A stretch of 64,000 nucleotides of DNA from Meghimatium bilineatum (lineage: Eukaryota > Mollusca > Gastropoda > Stylommatophora > Philomycidae): NCBI GenBank assembly GCA_034231615.1, contig CM067317.1, positions 13,371,316 to 13,435,315 on the forward strand, given 5' to 3'. This document shows, piece after piece, positions 11,110 to 53,800 of the stretch. The notes under the pieces were generated by a model. That model was not told the DNA's origin and did not search any database. It saw only the letters and a list, made by a program, of their open reading frames with translations. Made by a program: the position numbers and the translations under genes. Positions within the stretch are counted from its first letter, which is position 1. Every line of letters begins with the position of its first letter.

Positions 11110-11590
11110 TCTATGTACCTCATATCATCATCATCATCTAGTTCCATCTCCGCAATGAAGGTTGGCTGCAACAGATATCCGATATTCCCGCCATTCATTT
11201 TGGTGGTGGTGAACTCTGCTAGACTGTAACCTGTCCATCTTGTGATGTTACTCTCCCATTTGTATCTTGCCTACCTTCGACTTTACCCTCAAGTAAGGTT
11301 TTCAACAGGGTGTCATGTCTTTTAATGAGCCCAAAATATTTTATTTGCTTGATCTTTATTTCCTTTAATAATTGTTTCTTCATATTAAGTGTTGTTAGAA
11401 CTTCTTTATTTGCTTTCTTCTCTTTTCATATTCTCCCTATTCTTCTATATATCCAAATCTCTCAAAGACATCAATTCTATCTTTTAATTGTTTGTTTATT
11501 GTCCATGTTTCTGAGCCAGACATTAATATAGAATAGACGCAGCATTTTATAATTCTCATTTTTAGTTTGTTTGTAATTTGTTTAAAAAAG
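11110..11590 (-). pseudogene. LINE C-terminal fragment
   Basis: Reverse complement of the 3' part of the LINE at 12138-13205 (shared blocks around CATAAATATAGAAT-like and the CTGCAGCCAACCTTC-like 3' end). Frames broken. Confidence 0.75.
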
Positions 11591-12137: not shown

Positions 12138-13205
12138 TACAGTATCTCATACAGCAAGGTCTTTGACAGAGTCCAACATGAAAAATTAATCAAATGTCTA
12201 CAAGAAATAGGCATAGATGGAAAATACATCAGACTGATTAGAAATATATATTGGGAATAGACTGCATCAATAAGTTGTGAAAACAGCAACTCACCATACA
12301 TAGAAACAATGAGAGGCAAGACAAGGATGTATTTTTTAACCACCCAGCCTATTTAATATCTACACAGAAAATATCTTTAAACATATAGAAGGAATGCCAG
12401 GACTCAAGATCAGTGGGAACATAATAAACAACCTGAGATATGCAGATGACACTGTCCTTTTAGCAGAAAGTGAACATGAACTACAAAGACTAATAGATCA
12501 AGTCAATAAATCAAGTAATGAATATGGGCTGGATATAAACATCCAAAATAAACCATGATAATCAGCAGAGACACAGAAGAACAGGTGCAAACATAAAAAT
12601 ACAGGGAGAGAAACTAAAACAAGTAGAACATTATCAATATCTTGGACACATAGTCACAAATGATGGCAGATGTGAAACAGAAGTTAAAAGGAGAATAAGA
12701 ATGGCTAAAAATACTTTCAATGGCATGAGGGAAAAAAATATTAACATCTAAACAAATTACAAAACAAGCTAAAAATGAGAATCATAAAATGCTACATATA
12801 TTCTATATTAATATATGGCTCAGAAACATGGACAATAAACAAACAATTAGAAGACAGAATTGATGCCTTTGAGATGTGGATGTATAGAGCAATGGGGAGA
12901 ACATCATGGAAAGAGAAGAAAAGTAGCAAAGACATCCTAACAACACTTAATATAAATAAAGAATTATTAAAGGAAATAATGTTCAAGCAAATAAAATATT
13001 TTGTGCACATTAAAAGACATAACACCTTGTTGAAGACCTTACTTAAGGGTTAATTTGATTCGAGGCAAGCAGGAGGTAAACAGAGATACAAGTGGGAGAG
13101 TAACATCACAAGATGGACAGTTTACAGTCTAGCAGAGTGCACCACCAAAACAAGAGACGGGATGTTAGAGGCCTGCTGCAGCCAACCTTCGTTGCAGAGA
13201 TGACA
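12138..13205 (+). pseudogene. Decayed LINE: reverse transcriptase and C-terminus
   Basis: Scrambled frames show SKVFDRVQHEKLIKCLQEIG, IDGKYIRLIRNIYWE, a NLRYADDTVLLAES box near 12430-12470 and, from 12775, MRIIKCYIYSILIYGSETWT with NKQLEDRIDAFEMWMYRAMG. Related fragments in the opposite direction lie at 11110-11590 and 44900-45420. Confidence 0.82.
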
Positions 13206-14689
13206 CTTGATGTTTTTTCTTACTGACTCTACAGAACATGTACATTGTAATTTATCTCATTTAAACCAAAATCAAAAAGTGTAACTAAATTGTTCTAATT
13301 AAGACAGAAAGTGATAGTGATATTATCCATTTGATCCGTTCCAGGACATTATTATCATTAGTAACTTTATCCATAATTTGACGTTTTAAATTCCATTTTC
13401 TAAGCCTATGAGGCCTATTGAAGAATTCTGAATATTACCCGGTAATCTGAAAATAAACACTTCTGTACAATAAAATCTTCTCTGTGCGATTAAGTCAAAC
13501 TGTCAAATGCTGCATGTTTCCTGTTAGGGAGGGATTTTGTAGCTGTGGGATAGAGGCTGCATGCACTTACTGGCGTCACATCATGTACAGGGTCAGTTTT
13601 TTTAATGTGAGTGATTAAGTGCCTAATTCAAAATACTTGTTCAACTGTTTGTAGAGTATCTTTAGCTAAACCTAAAAGTCTCAAACTGAAGCCTATCTGT
13701 GGCTTGTTTATAACTTCTTGAATTAACTCTTTACCTCCAACAAGCTGCTAAAAAGCAACCTAGGTACACTCACTGTGCCAGTAAGCTGATATCATTTATA
13801 CTTGTATAAGTTCTGAATACATTATGGCAGGAGAGGACAACCTTTATATATATATATATATTAATATATGGTTACAATTACAATTACACAAGCTATCAGA
13901 CTATGTCAAAATCTTCTCTGATAATGGGCCTTTCCTTTACAGATGTGTGAAAGATATCCGATATTTAATAAATGAAATATTTGGAGTTTTCCTTCATTTA
14001 ATGAATTACCCTCGTACTTTCATATTTATCTATTTGTTCTGGAGTCTTTGAACTATTCCCTCTGTTACATATTCCAGCTATGTACATAATAGTATATTAG
14101 GCATTATGAGTTAGGCAGTTCAGAATATAGTGATAAAGTCATGAAATTTGATTGTGTCTCTTAACTGTACCATGTCATCATCGTTTCACTCAACTTCATT
14201 ATAAATATCTCATGTTTTCTCTCCAATGTACCCTGTCATAATCTTACCACATCTCTCCACTGTACCCACAGTCAATGATAACTGATTAAAGCTACTACTA
14301 TACCCAATCTTTGAAGGCTCTCTCTAAGTCAACATAATCAATAAATGACTTCTTAGCAAGGATTCAGTTCATTTCAAAAGAACAAAAGACACTCTCATGA
14401 AATACATTCTTCACTAAAGCTCATATATAAGGTATATAAGTAATCTGCATTATCTCAAAACAAAGAAAAATACTTAACAATACTGACATGATCATTTACT
14501 GAATATTATTTCTATCCCAATAAAAGCATAGTTTTTTTTAATCATAGTATGTACATATATCAATATATATTTTTTTTAAAATGACATATACATTTTTGTA
14601 AGTATAACAAACATAAAGTTCTACTTTATATTTCAAATGAAGACTAGACAAAACATTTAGTAACAATAATAAATGTAATACACCTTAGA
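13206..14689. other. No gene recognised; one shared repeat
   Basis: 13490-13610 resembles 28305-28420 (GTCAAATGCTGCATGTTT, GGGATTTTGTAGCTGTG). A TATA run lies near 13845-13870. Confidence 0.55.
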
Positions 14690-15400: not shown

Positions 15401-16638
15401 AGAGGCATGTTCAAATGAAACCCGTCCGTGCCGTGCCACCTATGCCAGCATGCAAGGAGCATGAAGACGTCATCACTGATGTAATAGTATACACCAATGA
15501 ACAAATTGTCAGGTGGTCATTCTCTTTGTATGCTTAGTGCCTGGTGCAGGCAGTTGACAACATGGCTGGTATGATAAGGAATCCATTCCAAATTGGATCA
15601 ATGAAAAGTGATTGTTTCTTACAGCCGTAGGATATCAACAAACCAACATTCATCAATGAATGTAGGGGGTGTATGGTGAAACATGTGTGCCGAAGACAAC
15701 AGTGAAGATTGGGTAAGAATGCTTCGGAAGGGTCACAGGTAACAAATGATTTTTCACGGCAGGGTCAGGTACATATTGTAACAAAAGAAGTCACCTCCAA
15801 GATGGATGCAGCAATGAGGTTTCACCCACAGTTGAGTTTGCATTCACTAGCTGATGAATTCTGTGTTATTACGGACAGTTCAACTGATGATTCGGAACAA
15901 CTTAGTTGTCAGAGGGTGTGTTCTCAGTGGGTACCATGGTTATTGATTGACCACCATAAGGGACAATGAGAATACTGTGGAGTTTGAATCATTTGCAGCA
16001 TTACCATGCAGAAGGTGATGAATTTCTGTCCCAAATAGTGACAGGTGACAAATTGTGCATTTTCAGCTACGCAGCAAAACAGACAGCATGCAATGGAAAC
16101 ATCCTGGATCACCAAAGATTAAAAAATTCAAATGACAAATTTTCACAGGAAATGTTATTTTTTTTTACCAAGAAGAATTCTTACTGGTGGATTTTAAAGA
16201 GCCTAGTGTGAACATCAATGTTGCTGGCTACAAGTACATACTAGACAAGCTGCCATCAAAGAATAGGTGACCTGGAATGCTGTTGCAAAGTGTCATTCTG
16301 TTGCACAGCAATGCTTACCAGCATGTCATAAAAGTTGTGCAGAAAGCATAAGCATGAAAAAAGATGGGAAGTTCTGACACATCCAGCCTATAGCCCCAAT
16401 CTATCGCCATATGACTTAATTTGTTCTGACTTTTAAAGACAGCTCTAAAAGAACAATGATTCCACTCAGATGTCATGACAGCGCTGACTAAATGGTTCAA
16501 TGAGCAAGCGAAGTCCTTCTCAGAAGGAATTCAGTCTATCCAGACAATGAGATGTATGTTTTATAATGTAGCTGCTGATGTGCCTTTCCTAATCTTGTAA
16601 TAAACTCACTAGGACGGATCTCATTTGAACACACCTTG
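15401..16638 (+). mobile_element. Decayed mariner-like element
   Basis: 1238 bp between TA dinucleotides (15399-15400, 16639-16640). The ends are imperfect inverted repeats: left GAGGCATGTTCAAATG, right in reverse AAGGTGTGTTCAAATG, each followed by a CCGTCC motif. Inside, several frames carry mariner pieces: QWVPWLLIDHHKGQ, HLQHYHAEGDEFLSQIVTGD near 15980-16050, a LLHSNAYQH relic near 16300, and ASKSFSEGIQSI near 16510-16540. It has multiple frameshifts and stops and is non-functional. It belongs to a different mariner lineage from the intact copy. Confidence 0.88.
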
Positions 16639-17087
16639 TACTATTGTGACTTTGAATCAATCTGGGACTTAAAAGTGATTTCCGACAAAACAACTATTGA
16701 TTATGACACTGAAAACTTCAGAGAGTATGTCATGAAGAATTATGAATGTCTAGCATTGAGGGCTACTGGCCATCATGACAATAGTGAACAGTGATATCTA
16801 AGAACTCTTTGAATACTTTAATGAATTTACAAAACTAGCACATGAAGCTTCCAAAATACTGTGACACAGGACAATAAATTTGGCTTTGGTTTAAATTATT
16901 TATTTTCGACAAGTGTTTATTTCCAATATTTGATAAATTCACTATATATTTATCGAATGTTGCCTTGCACAAGTGTTTATTTCCAATATTTGATAAATTC
17001 ACTATATATTTATTGAATGTTGCCTTGCACAAGTGTTTATTTCCAATATTTGATTCTTCTTCTTCTTCTTTCGTTCGCTAATAATGT

Positions 17088-18488
17088 CTATATCTGCAGT
17101 GTTGTTTCTTGTATAAATTGGACAGTGTTTTCCATTTCTTGTTTTGTACCATAAAGTTTAACATTCTTTGGTGTATCAGAAGGCCAGTATGTGCATCTTA
17201 ATGTGTCATAGTTTGCACATTCTTGAAGGATATGTTCTGAAGTCTGGTTGACTTGTCCACAATTACACTTTGCTGTTGTGCCAATTTTAAATTGTGTATA
17301 CATATGGCTGTTTAGTCTATTGTGTCCAGTTCTCAGTCGAAATATGATGACCTGTTCTTGTCTGTTAAGTAGGTGGTAGTCGTCCCGTGGAGGTAAGTTA
17401 GGCTTTCGTTGTGCCTTTATCATGGATTTCTTTTGGTGATAGCTGATTGGTACATCCGGTTGCTGCATGTTAGCACCTTCCTTGGCGAGTTGATCAGCTC
17501 TCTCATTTCCTGCTATTCCACAGTGTGATGGAATCCATTGCAGTATAACTCTACACCTATTTTGTACTATGGACAATACCTCTTTTAACTCTGGAAGTTT
17601 ATTGGATTGTAATGCCTCTAGTACTGACCTTGCATCTGTAAGTATTACAATAGGGTGTGAGGTCCTGTCCAATGTTAACAGTTTCTCTGCAGCTGTATAA
17701 ATAGCTTTGACTTCAGAGTCATAGTTGTTGCAGTAATTCCCTGTTGGTATACAAGTGGTATCAGTGGTGCCATCTGGGTATTCTACATATACACCACTTC
17801 CTCCATTTTTTACTGCATTCTGTGCTGATCCATCTGTATATACTCTGGTCCATAGATCACTTGGGTAAGCATCATCAAGGAAACTGAGAGCTGCTACTCT
17901 TTTCTGCAGATTATTCTGATGTTCATCCCCATGCACACCTGCTACTGTTGTTTGGATGGTCACTGGTAGGCATGTCCGTTTTTCCCATGGGGTGTGTTCT
18001 GGTTGAGATGTCAGTGGTATTGTTACCTCTGGCAGATCCGATACCTGTCTACGTAGATGCTTGGCCTGGTGTATGAAGCTGCTTCTTTTAAGCCGTCCTT
18101 GTGACAGATTCTGGAATCTTTCCTTCATTGGGTGACTATGGTGGGAAAGAAACTTTTCTCCATGAATTATAATTTTAGTATCTCTACGCTCTTTCAATGA
18201 CTGCATCCCTTCGATATTCTGCATTTCTATGATTGGTGTGGATCTCATTGCGCCTGTAATGATTCTAAGTGCTTGGTTCTGTACTCTATCTAGGTTATGT
18301 AGTGTAGTGTTTGATGATGAATTCCATGCTGTAGAACCATATTCCAAGTGTGGTCGAATGGCTTGTTGGTATACATTTTTTCGAATTCTTTCATTAGCTC
18401 CCCAAGTTGTCCCACTCAGTTTTCTTAGTATAGCTATCTTCCTTCTAGCCTTTGTTTCTGCTTTGCTGATATGATGTTTCCATGTCAT
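17088..18488 (-). CDS. LINE polyprotein segment: RT thumb, RNase H, zinc knuckle
   Basis: 466 codons open. RT thumb (IRPHLEYGSTAWNSSSN, ALRIITGAMRSTP), then RNase H with the acidic residues in YTDGSAQNAV, YDSEVKAIY and ILTDARSVLEAL and the HCGIAGNERADQLAKEGA box. A C-terminal CNCG...SEHILQEC finger follows. RNase H removes RNA from the RNA:DNA hybrid in elements of the I/Jockey-like groups. The Met at 18488 is internal; the true frame runs upstream into the RT and is stopped once near 18645 by TGA where related copies have Trp. Confidence 0.9.
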   Translation of the reverse strand: MTWKHHISKAETKARRKIAILRKLSGTTWGANERIRKNVYQQAIRPHLEYGSTAWNSSSNTTLHNLDRVQNQALRIITGAMRSTPIIEMQNIEGMQSLKERRDTKIIIHGEKFLSHHSHPMKERFQNLSQGRLKRSSFIHQAKHLRRQVSDLPEVTIPLTSQPEHTPWEKRTCLPVTIQTTVAGVHGDEHQNNLQKRVAALSFLDDAYPSDLWTRVYTDGSAQNAVKNGGSGVYVEYPDGTTDTTCIPTGNYCNNYDSEVKAIYTAAEKLLTLDRTSHPIVILTDARSVLEALQSNKLPELKEVLSIVQNRCRVILQWIPSHCGIAGNERADQLAKEGANMQQPDVPISYHQKKSMIKAQRKPNLPPRDDYHLLNRQEQVIIFRLRTGHNRLNSHMYTQFKIGTTAKCNCGQVNQTSEHILQECANYDTLRCTYWPSDTPKNVKLYGTKQEMENTVQFIQETTLQI

Positions 18489-18982
18489 TTTGGCATCAAA
18501 TGTTACACCAAGATATGTGGGTTGGTCATCTACCTTTAAGATAGTTTTATTTACATAGATGTTTCCTGCTCTTTGTTTTGGTGAAAGTGTATAAAGGGTT
18601 GTTGCTGACTTCTCTATAGTGATACTTACACACCATTTGTCAGCTCAATTAGTCAAAATGTCCATGGCTCTCTGAAGCATTTTTGTGGCAACCATGGCGC
18701 TCGCATGTGTGCACAATAGAACCAAGTCATCTGCATATAGTGCTGCCTTAGTTCCACAGGGTATTTCTTCAATTAGATCATTGATAAATATGAGAAAGAG
18801 AGTGGGTGATAGAACTCCTCGAGGCACTCCATGGCGTAGTAATACTTTCCTACTTTTTTGCCATTTACTTGTACTCTGGCTCTTCTATTGTGAAGAAAGG
18901 CTTTCGTCCATCTAAACATATTTCCACATATCTTGTAGTTTCTCATTTTTTGAAGCAATCCTTCTTTCCACATTTATCAAAG
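18489..18982 (-). pseudogene. LINE reverse transcriptase, 5'-truncated
   Basis: Minus-strand frame WKEGLLQKMRNYKICGNMF, FLHNRRARVQVNGK, a shift near 18830, then PRGVLSPTLFLIFINDLIEE and YADDLVLL. One stop (TGA) near 18645 precedes DKWCVSITIEKS and PTYLGVTFDAKMTWKHH. A one-base loss is apparent at the extreme 5' end. Otherwise well preserved, so insertion was probably fairly recent. Confidence 0.85.
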
Positions 18983-34679: not shown

Positions 34680-35478
34680 CGGCCCCATAGCTTTTGCCCA
34701 AAATCGATATCCTCTGGCCTGACCCGACATCTCTGCTCTGCGTATGTTGGGTAGTCCTGCAGTATGTATTCAGTGGTTTGGGTTCCTGATCCAAATGGAC
34801 ATTCATCTGTGTAAGAGATTCTCAGTCAGTAAGGTGCCCCAAAAGTCTGCAGTGGCCTGTTCTAAAGCAAAAAGTTTGGTCTGTTGATATCTTTGGAGGT
34901 GATGTATGGCATCAGTTTAGTCCTTCCACTTCCATTTGTTTCTTCCACTTTGATATGCATGTATTATGAATTATTGTGTTTGCTTCTTTGTAGGACAGTG
35001 GATGATACTTGGTTGTTCCATTCCACTACATGTTCTTAACAGATAATCAGCTTTATCATACCCATGACTCCACAGTGTGTGGGTACCCATTGAAGGGTAA
35101 TAACTGAGGATTTCTGGATATATTTTAACTCTGATGTTGTGCAGAAGGCTTTCAATTCTTGTGCTCTGGGTTGATTCCAATAGGGATCTGAGTCTGTGAT
35201 ATAGCTATCTTCTTTGGTCTTTTCTGATTCTGTGAGGACTTTCAGTGCATGATGGAGTGCAACTGCTTCTGCTCTAAAGTTATGAGTATTTGCCAGTTAG
35301 AAAAGCTTTAGATATTGTCTTACCATCTTTGAGTCTTATAAGAATTTCACCTTTTCATTATTGCTCTCTCTGCTGATCCATCTGTGTACACATGTGTCCA
35401 ATCCTTGGGATTGTATTTTCTTTCTATCATCTCTAGTGTCAATGCTTTTAGTTGAGGTGGAGTGGTGCTCCTTTTTAT
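34680..35478 (-). pseudogene. LINE 3' portion (RNase H and zinc-knuckle region), left of mariner
   Basis: Read on the minus strand. Near 35400 are DWTHVYTDGSAERAI (first RNase H Asp motif), then RAEAVALHHALKVL, then an S-x-x-x-Q-WVPTHCGV-like stretch with frameshifts. The lower end (34680-34830) resembles the Cys-rich C-terminus at 1905-2141. It ends abruptly at the mariner insertion site. Decayed. Confidence 0.75.
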
Positions 35479-35480
35479 TA

Positions 35481-35510
35481 CGAGGGGGAGTCAATAAGTA
35501 AGTCACAAAT
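35481..35510 (+). repeat. Left TIR of mariner
   Basis: 30-bp terminal inverted repeat, identical in reverse complement to 36786-36815, next to TA. Confidence 0.95.
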
Positions 35511-35644
35511 TGATGTTGGATGGCAGGAAAATGCAGTAGGTGGTTTCTAAAGCTGTTTATAGTTGATATCATCATAGAACTTTATGTTTATGTTCGCTAG
35601 ATGGCGCTAGCTGTACCTTGCGCATGCGCAGCACAAAAAACAAA

Positions 35645-36715
35645 ATGGCTACTGTACTTACAGAGTGTACAATCAATGAACAACGTGCTGTTGTGCGTTT
35701 TTTATGGGCAAAAGGACTGCCTGCAAAAGACATTCATAAAGAAATGCTTCCTGTTTATGCTGACAATTGTTTGTCCCGTAAAGCGGTGCACAGCTGGGTA
35801 AAAAAATTTTCTCAAGGACGCTCTAAAATTGTTGACGAAATCCGATCTGGTCGTGCTGTTGAAATTGCAACAGACGCATCTGTGCAGCGGGTTGAGGAGA
35901 TGATTCGAGGTGACAGACGAGTAACGATAGACGCTGTAGCAGCCGCAATAGGGTGCTCACATGGTTCAGCATACAGCATCATGCATGACCGATTGAAATT
36001 TAAGAAAGTGTGTTCAAGGTGGGTGCCCAGACAATTGACGGACGAACACAAAATGAACCGATTAGGCTTGTCATTGGAGCATCTCTGTCAATACGCAAAT
36101 GAAGGAGAAGACATGATGAACAGGATTATTACTGGGGACGAATCATGGGTGCATCACTACCAGCCGGAATCAAAGCGTGCTTCAATGCAATGGAAACATC
36201 CTTCTTCGCCTTGTGTCCAAAAATTCAAGGTTACACCATCAGCAGGGAAGGTTATGCTGACAGTGTTCTGGGATTGTCAAGGAGTGCTTTTAACCAATTT
36301 CAAAAAGAAAGGTGACAATGTGAATTCTGAATCATACTGTGAAGTTCTATCAGTGCTTCGGGATGCAATTCGAAGAAAACGTCCAGGGCTGCTGACTAGA
36401 GGAGTGCTACTCCTTCATGACAATGCTAGACCACATACGGCTCGATTAACTCAGGAGAAAATAAAAAATCTTGGTTGGAAAATTCTGGAACATCCTCCTT
36501 ACAGCCCCGATTTAGCCCCTAGTGATTTTCACCTTTTTGGTCCACTAAAAACCCACCTTGGCGGGAAGCATTTCGCGACTGACGCAGAAGTTGAATGTGA
36601 AGTGAAAATGTGGCTTAAAAAGCAGAGCACGCAGTTCTACGCAGCAGGTTTGGGAGGACTCATAAAACGATGGGATAAATGCATCAATGTTGGTGGAAAT
36701 TATGTTGAGAAGTAA
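35645..36715 (+). CDS. Mariner transposase, intact, D,D34D
   Basis: Cut-and-paste transposase acting on the element's inverted repeats in the nucleus. The frame is open from 35618; I prefer the Met at 35645 (context aaaATGg), giving 356 residues, near the ~345-350 usual for mariner. The N-terminal ~110 residues form the helix-turn-helix DNA-binding half (QRAVVRFLWAKGLPAKDIHK; SRKAVHSWVKKFSQGRSK). WVPRQL is the linker motif. Catalytic Asp 165 (TGDESW), Asp 259 (HDNARPH) and Asp 294 (SPDLAPSDFHLF), with 34 residues between the last two, give the mariner D,D34D signature. There is no frameshift, internal stop or missing catalytic residue. Activity is not proven. Confidence 0.95.
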   Translation: MATVLTECTINEQRAVVRFLWAKGLPAKDIHKEMLPVYADNCLSRKAVHSWVKKFSQGRSKIVDEIRSGRAVEIATDASVQRVEEMIRGDRRVTIDAVAAAIGCSHGSAYSIMHDRLKFKKVCSRWVPRQLTDEHKMNRLGLSLEHLCQYANEGEDMMNRIITGDESWVHHYQPESKRASMQWKHPSSPCVQKFKVTPSAGKVMLTVFWDCQGVLLTNFKKKGDNVNSESYCEVLSVLRDAIRRKRPGLLTRGVLLLHDNARPHTARLTQEKIKNLGWKILEHPPYSPDLAPSDFHLFGPLKTHLGGKHFATDAEVECEVKMWLKKQSTQFYAAGLGGLIKRWDKCINVGGNYVEK

Positions 36716-36785
36716 AGGGATAATGTATGTGTAAAAATAAACAGTTTTCAGGTTTTTATCGTCTTCAGTTTTTTTCTAAAGAGCC

Positions 36786-36815
36786 ATTTGTGACTTACTT
36801 ATTGACTCCCCCTCG
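36786..36815 (-). repeat. Right TIR of mariner
   Basis: 30-bp terminal inverted repeat, perfect partner of 35481-35510, followed by TA. Confidence 0.95.
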
Positions 36816-36817
36816 TA

Positions 36818-37262
36818 TATTCCAATGCTGATCTTACGTAGCCTGTATATGCTCTAATTAGAATTTTCCAATTTGCACCCCAATCTTTTCCAGCCAATTT
36901 TTAAGGAGTGCTGTCCTCATTGTACCTTTTGTTTAGCACTTGTCTATGTGCTGTATCCATATAAGTCTTGGATCAAAAGTGACTCCAAGGTATGTGGGTG
37001 TCTCGTCTTTATGCAATGTTTGACCTTTTATGGTTAGTAGGATTTTCTGTGGTTTGGTGGACATGCTGAAGATGGTATAGGTAGTTTTTGGACATTGATA
37101 GACATGGCCCATTGGTCTGTCCACTTGGCCAAATTGTCCAGTTTCCTGTAACCTTATTTTTGTTGTGCCTACGCTCTCTTCACTGCACCATATCGCCAGA
37201 TCATCTGCATACATTGCAGCATTTACTTTACACGAGAGGATTTGGTCAATGTCATTCATGAA
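36818..37262 (-). pseudogene. LINE reverse transcriptase fragment, right of mariner
   Basis: The minus frame encodes FMNDIDQILSCKVNAAMYAD then DLAIW (YADD catalytic box), PTYLGVTFDPRLIWIQHI and, nearer the mariner, LIRAYTGYVRSALEY. This is the RT palm/thumb of an RNase H-type LINE. The ~150 residues that normally separate this point from RNase H are missing, so the copy had lost internal sequence before or when the mariner arrived. Confidence 0.8.
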
Positions 37263-37383
37263 GGAACCTCTATTATTATGGAGACATTTTGAAGACTGTT
37301 GTCTGGCTCCTCAAAATCAGTGTCTCAATTTCTGTTGGCAGTTTTGCAAGGATATTTTGTGCTCAGTCAAAACCACATTCTTG

Positions 37384-52639: not shown

Positions 52640-53800
52640 CAATAGCCACAACTTCAAAATACCCAAATGGGCTTCCGTAAGAACAAAAGCTGACAACTAA
52701 CAGAAAGAGCCACAGAAAACAACAAAGAATTATATATCGCATTCGTAGACCAAGAAAAGGCATTCGACAGAGTAGACAGACAACAACTATGGAAAACACT
52801 ATCAATATACGGAGTACCAGAACATTTAATCAACATATGCAAGGGCATTTATGCAAATAGCCAATGTGCAGTAACAACAAATGCAGGTGTGACAAATAAG
52901 TTCCAAATTCAATCAGGAGTTCGCCAGGGGTGTGTCCTATCCCCTCTACTTTTTATAACATATATCGACCACATCTGTAAACTAACAAGTACCAACGAAG
53001 AAGATAACATAAAAGACAAATTGAACGAACTACTTTTTGCAGACGACCAAGTACTAATAGCGACATCAGAAGAACAATTGCAAGACCATATGAACAAACT
53101 CCACATAACATGTCAAAAATTCAACATGAAGATTAATATTGAAAAGACTGAAATAATGGCAATAGCAAAGAAAGAAAGAAATATCACTATCTCCATCGAT
53201 GATAAACACCTTAAACAAGTAAATTAGTTCACTTACTTAGGAAGCATTATATCGAGTGAAGGGAAAACCAGTAAAGAGATACAAAATAGATGCAACAAAA
53301 CATACCAGATCCTAGGACAGATGACACGCATTTTCAAGAACAAAAATGTATACATAGACACTAAAGTTGCATTATACAAGACTATTATTATTCCATCACT
53401 ATGCTACCAGTGCCAAACCTGGACAATGACAGCACAAGACAAAAGAAAAATAGTGACAACAGAAATGACATGTCTACGAAGAATACTCGGAGTGTCATTA
53501 AGAGATAGAATTAGAAACGATAACATCAGACAGATAACCAAAACAATACCAGTATTGGAACACATCAAAAGACAGCAGATCAAGTGGTTTTCACACGCTT
53601 CCAGACTACCGACATATAGCATGCCACAAATGGCCATGACACATAGACATAACGGTTATAAAGCCAGAGGCAGACCATGTAAAAGATGGATCACAGAAAT
53701 CAAAGAAGTCACAGGAACAAGCTTATAAACAGCGCACAAGAAGGCCATCTCCAGAGAACTCTTCCACCCCTGACTTTGCAAGGCAAACAATGGACACAGC
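52640..53800 (+). pseudogene. LINE reverse transcriptase with (GATA)n tail
   Basis: Codes AFVDQEKAFDRVDRQQLWKT near 52739, then from 52889 FQIQSGVRQGCVLSPLLFIT, YIDHICKL and LLFADDQVLIATSEEQL (FADD box), ending at one in-frame stop (53225) inside FTYLGSIISSEG. The tail (53321-53728) has YQCQTWTMTAQDKRK, TEMTCLRRILGV, and ARGRPCKRWITEIKE. It runs into about 225 bp of GATA repeats. Two to three disruptions in all. No RNase H domain follows the RT, unlike family A. Confidence 0.85.

Follow-up and report, generated by a model that had tools for sequence, protein, structure and literature searches.

Our study reports on a complete mariner transposon in Meghimatium bilineatum, which lies at positions 35481 to 36815 (plus strand) of a 64,000-nucleotide stretch of genomic DNA, here called the window. 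The element is a newly found representative of an already known kind of transposon and, by its sequence features, belongs to the mariner family (DD34D) of Tc1/mariner; it is one of the few copies seen that still encode an unmutated transposase. From a comparison of its copies across the genome we hold it to be probable that this is an autonomous cut-and-paste mariner whose recent single founder gave a short pulse of insertions, followed by neutral decay, and that the family, as it appears, is now quiet.

The element is 1335 bp long and displays the features of its family, short and perfect 30-bp terminal inverted repeats (TIRs) with a TA on either side. The left repeat (35481–35510, plus strand) starts with CGAGGG and is identical over its 30 bp to the right repeat (36786–36815, minus strand), and the TA target-site duplications occupy 35479–35480 and 36816–36817. 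A single ATG frame (35624–36715, plus strand), recognized by Pfam and by alignment, encodes a transposase of 363 residues in which D172, D266 and D301 are separated by 93 and 34 residues, the D,D34D spacing, and fall in the columns of the catalytic residues of Mos1. The perfect repeats, the TA on both sides, the single open frame and the D,D34D triad had been claimed in a first-pass annotation and were recovered here, with the coordinates of the element exact. Reading of the sequence also indicates a better start context at Met8 (35645; A at −3, G at +4) and a possible poly(A) signal, AATAAA, directly past the stop codon (36736–36741, plus strand). A search of Rfam at the gathering threshold and a tRNA scan gave no matches; the scan for bacterial promoters and terminators is uninformative for an animal gene.

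The encoded protein matches Pfam HTH_48, a Mos1-type HTH (27.3 bits, cut-off 24.1), and Transposase_1 (66.3 bits, cut-off 24), with a further match to DDE_3 just under its own cut-off, and the solved structures of Mos1 and SETMAR align to it by sequence. Mos1, of the mauritiana subfamily in Drosophila, shares the HTH and DDD transposase (query residues 20–362, 163 bits), the D,D34D spacing and the TA target, but is only 30% identical to the window transposase. The human Hsmar1/SETMAR, of the cecropia subfamily, has a C-terminal domain 37% identical to ours and shares its motifs; in the alignment SETMAR carries N at the third catalytic position, whereas the window protein keeps D301. The YSPDL motif is exact, within YSPDLAPSD, while the linker, WVPHEL in Hsmar1/SETMAR, reads WVPRQL in the window protein, with four of six letters equal. 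Single-sequence structure prediction of the transposase (mean pLDDT 41) was too poor for use. The TIR resembles that of the CGAGGG-type Rpmar9 of Rhodnius in its start and in 19 of the first 28 bases, a comparison by TIR alone of a kind that does not settle subfamily (available text of PMC4678618).

A search of the genome (1.61 Gb, 32 contigs) located the exact 30-bp TIR 656 + 660 = 1316 times and its reversed control not once, so the repeats of the window copy are not chance repeats. Allowing up to three mismatches raised the count to 750 + 747, again with none for the control; since this adds only 181 occurrences to the 1316, older copies are few. With the element as query there were 1313 first-look candidates, of which the best 40, the window copy and 39 others, were scored. 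All are full length, and the 39 others differ from the window copy at no more than three positions. Near-identical relatives of the kind that the first-pass annotation proposed to seek are thus present, among the best 40 of the 1313, which excludes a lone copy.

A wider view of the family comes from one contig (C1), where the first 100 places listed trace back to 57 loci, all of which were taken. The sample needs at least one exact TIR per locus, covers a single stretch of contig and, at 57 of about 750 loci, has low power for daughters of mutated copies. Both ends of the element are reached in 50 of the loci, 36 of these without an indel; the remaining seven are truncated at one end or interrupted by unread bases. 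A TA stands on both sides in 47 of the 57, and the open reading frame is kept in 34 of the 50 end-to-end copies. The 43 paired TIR ends in the C1 list span 1318–1336 bp, with no short paired derivatives among them. Extrapolation from this sample gives a family of about 750 loci, with 474 full copies free of indels.

As the reference, or master, we used the real sequence of one copy (L003), which is common to seven of the eight copies first fetched. Among the best 40 of the 1313 candidates, 11 copies match this master letter for letter and 27 carry one substitution, a different one in each; the window copy and L091 make up the remaining two. The window copy departs from the master just twice, at third codon positions (464 and 686 of the element), and because both differences are synonymous it encodes the unmutated master protein. 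The two changes occur together in no other of the best 40 copies, and L091 shares the 686G of the window copy alongside two changes of its own. The 33 full-length proteins of the C1 sample all differ from that of the reference, and a catalytic Asp is lost in one. As the unmutated master transposase is still encoded, the window copy would probably produce a competent enzyme if expressed.

The distribution of differences among copies suggests how the family grew. The 50 end-to-end C1 copies carry on average 3.74 substitutions relative to the master, mostly private, with a variance of 2.40, slightly below that of a Poisson distribution (P = 0.024), and diversity among copies is low (pi 0.0056). 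A single pulse accounts for these counts with a log-likelihood of −94.0; a constant rate scores −108.3 and exponential ages −122.1. Steady expansion and exponential ages, 14 and 28 log units worse, were rejected as unlikely. A pulse also predicts 9.7 unmutated copies (bootstrap 5.7–16.9) and a constant rate 60.9, and 11 were seen in the best-40 list; the 57 C1 loci contained none, nor did seven more places taken from another list of the 40 best. Once positions 324, 326 and 327 had been left out, the copies shared five variants, where recurrence would give 8.3. Taken together, the spread of substitutions, the count of unmutated copies, the scarcity of shared variants and the neutral, CpG-enriched character of the changes argue for a single expansion, and the family seems to have expanded once, in a short pulse, at a distance of about 0.28% substitutions per copy.

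This record bears directly on whether the element is moving now. Mos1, Famar1 and Mboumar-9 are naturally active mariners. Few classical mariners have been proven to be so, Mboumar-9 being called the third in the available text of a 2008 report. That our element is active and its family still expanding would accord with the 34 of 50 copies that keep an open frame, with the 11 copies of the best 40 that are identical to each other and with the two changes shared by L022 and L047 at different genomic sites, yet the constant-rate and exponential models fare far worse than the pulse, unmutated copies are not in excess, the 27 one-change copies of the best 40 all differ, and shared variants outside 324–327 do not exceed recurrence; we regard continuing expansion as quite unlikely. 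One parallel is the fire-ant element Mariner-2_DF, which is reported as currently active and which, in the available text of PMC6307670, likewise has a recent, low-diversity expansion (857 copies, pi 0.005). It is described there as highly polymorphic, with nine variants each represented by 2–11 identical copies, whereas here the closest-40 list contains one repeated variant and few shared changes. On the part of that report available, our family is of like age to Mariner-2_DF but lacks its mark of continued transposition. A pulse that has ended accounts for the genomic record better than present activity does, and the family as a whole appears to be quiet, with its expansion over, although some activity may persist at a low level. 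The first-pass description of a complete mariner that may be active holds in that the copy is complete and young, has many near-identical relatives and encodes the master protein; present activity is not supported, as the substitution spread fits one past pulse and the lists seen contain no excess of fresh copies.

The quality of the assembly has to be weighed in the same terms. If the copies were truly identical and their differences were assembly errors, the burst would be essentially a present-day event, and the mostly private and scattered nature of the differences is what one would see. A duplicated pair of loci on C1 (L016 and L017) points the same way, with seven sites and two indels differing inside the element against one difference in about 600 bp of flank. 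Against this reading, C/G transitions are about four times as common at CpG (32 at 84 sites) as elsewhere (43 at 485), and indels are few relative to substitutions; we consider it highly implausible. CpG sites, 84 of the 1335, took 32 of the 174 changes as transitions, which suggests real decay. Synonymous, nonsynonymous and stop changes (30/112/8) are spread as neutrality predicts (38/105/7, P = 0.29), a pattern that errors would equally give and that does not separate decay from assembly error.

A small number of changes recur between copies. The two shared by L016 and L017 reflect a segmental duplication, the loci lying about 275 kb apart with flanks 99.7–100% identical and the same truncated mariner in each; the element may be mutating faster than its flank in this pair, though the numbers are small. 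L022 and L047 share 273A and 326T at unrelated sites with different flanks. At the element-wide level, 326 A>T is found in nine and 327 T>A in four of the 57 C1 loci, and 327A in six of seven places added later, themselves drawn from a ranking by similarity to a 327A-bearing copy. Because the changes run in both directions, 326 and 327 (within 324–327) are likely to form a mutational hotspot at the border of an A-run and a T-run; it is possible that they were early source variants during the burst. We also weighed a sub-lineage with 326T or 327A as its marker, and the hotspot was preferred, without proof, on account of the two directions of change. For a copy with seven changes (L018), no copy sharing two of them was found among the eight nearest others checked; the nearest share one each, either 327A or 1009G.

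Where the founder came from can be approached through the other mariners of this genome. A narrow search with a degenerate form of the HDNARPH motif, its Asp encoded by the other codon, returned 18 places: one belongs to this family (L079), three to an internally deleted lineage, five are relics and nine have no match to the window transposase. The three (L073, L077 and L084) make up a second mariner lineage, about 50% identical in amino acids across the catalytic portion, and each lacks an internal segment at a similar position. The presence of other lineages and relics in the same genome would allow an old resident lineage to have been reactivated from within, with no outside arrival, but among the 18 motif places nothing lies between about 50% amino acid identity and the burst, and the TIRs with up to three mismatches add so few to the exact ones; we think reactivation unlikely. 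The absence of intermediates favors recent arrival of one founder, for which we infer horizontal transfer. In viral and prokaryotic collections no relative was confirmed by protein or alignment: phage records contained no match, and plasmid records two distant matches. One of these plasmids, NZ_CP135988.1, is small, with partial resistance genes and a match to a mariner-type transposase at 26% identity; it looks like laboratory-vector sequence. Searching the literature for pieces of the TIR sequence returned one unrelated paper only.

Within the window, the mariner has inserted into a decayed minus-strand non-LTR retrotransposon and cut it in two. The reverse-transcriptase tail of this host element (36900–37310, minus strand) scores below the cut-off for Pfam RVT_1 and matches, as protein, another non-LTR copy of the window; its RNase H part (34682–35454, minus strand) is frame-broken. 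When the flanks are joined, with the element and one TA removed, the protein alignment to the in-window relative crosses the join, weakly on the far side. An older mariner relic of another lineage, frame-broken and badly decayed, lies at 15615–16418 (plus strand; 27–56% amino acid identity by piece). A 5′-truncated non-LTR retrotransposon with a GAA-repeat tail (17056–18982, minus strand) sits inside a 60-bp minisatellite, with units on either side, and includes a 518-codon open stretch (copy 17088–18644). A repeat also forms a large inverted duplication, about 81% identical, at 11135–11584 and 12749–13212. The mariner is younger than the decayed elements around it, as had been claimed. The accompanying statement, that no other mobile DNA in the window is whole, is borne out by the pieces examined, namely the mariner relic, the 5′-truncated non-LTR element with its upstream stops and the reverse transcriptase at 52694–53728 with its in-frame stop; since the 17088–18644 copy retains its long open stretch, the contrast in age is less absolute than was claimed. 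When neutral decay was simulated from an undamaged element, the frame and the TIRs both stayed perfect with a probability of 0.144 at 1% and 0.017 at 2% divergence, and with survival so low the window copy would be judged young even if its relatives were left aside.

The insertion sites of the family point to a strict target rule. A TA lies outside 1307 of the 1316 exact ends, and the third base outward (−3) in these 1307 genome-wide ends, the window copy included, is A or T in 1297 and C or G in 10. The background frequency of C or G there is 34% for the window and 32% close to copies, so some 418 C/G ends would be expected. Of the ten exceptions, nine are insertions of full length that have C or G on just one side. 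The tenth (L116, on contig C3 at about 52.47 Mb) is a 35-bp left-end remnant that runs straight into GCTCGTA, a sequence similar to the right end; it is possibly the product of abortive repair. In the available texts, Mos1 has a reported bias for TATA or TAxTA, the Sleeping Beauty target is given as ANNTANNT, and Himar1 prefers A at −3 and T at +3 in a graded manner. Himar1 and Sleeping Beauty thus share with our family a favoring of A/T at −3/+3, but theirs is graded and ours near-absolute. A paper on Hsmar1 states, in the part available, that the surroundings of the TA usually add little specificity in Tc1/mariner and that the preferences of Hsmar1 and Himar1 are mild, unlike that of the window family. 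Among the available portions of the literature on target rules we recognized no stricter mariner rule; on these sources, a near-absolute A/T at the third base, stricter than the preferences reported for Himar1 or Hsmar1, is unusual.

The linker motif offers one possible connection between the enzyme and the tempo of the family. In the available text of a survey of aphids, WVPHEL is the less conserved of the mariner motifs, and in that on Hsmar1, its W, V, E and L are sites where substitution mostly gives a hyperactive enzyme, and its P and H sites where it mostly gives a hypoactive one. Since both H and E are changed in WVPRQL, the net effect cannot be predicted, and a contribution of the linker to the burst is speculation; a literature search found no match for WVPRQL together with mariner. 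We put forward as a tentative and rather doubtful proposal that the transposase reads its target beyond the TA (WNNTANNW), and that its WVPRQL linker, altered among others at a position where most substitutions render Hsmar1 hyperactive, could have let a single founder set off one burst that brought itself to an end.

Our data suggest a model for the history of this family. One founder sequence would probably have arrived recently from outside and given rise to an estimated 650–750 copies in a short pulse. By established mariner biology, a transposase dimer would bind and pair the 30-bp ends and the DDD active site would excise the element, which would then insert at a TA with A or T almost always the third base on either side; the copies would since have decayed neutrally to about 0.28% each. 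With a near-synchronous pulse whose master sequence is still present, both the start and the stop of a burst become directly testable. A strict target rule drawn from more than 1300 natural ends likewise makes a clear biochemical prediction, in a superfamily described, in the texts available, as choosing little beyond the TA.
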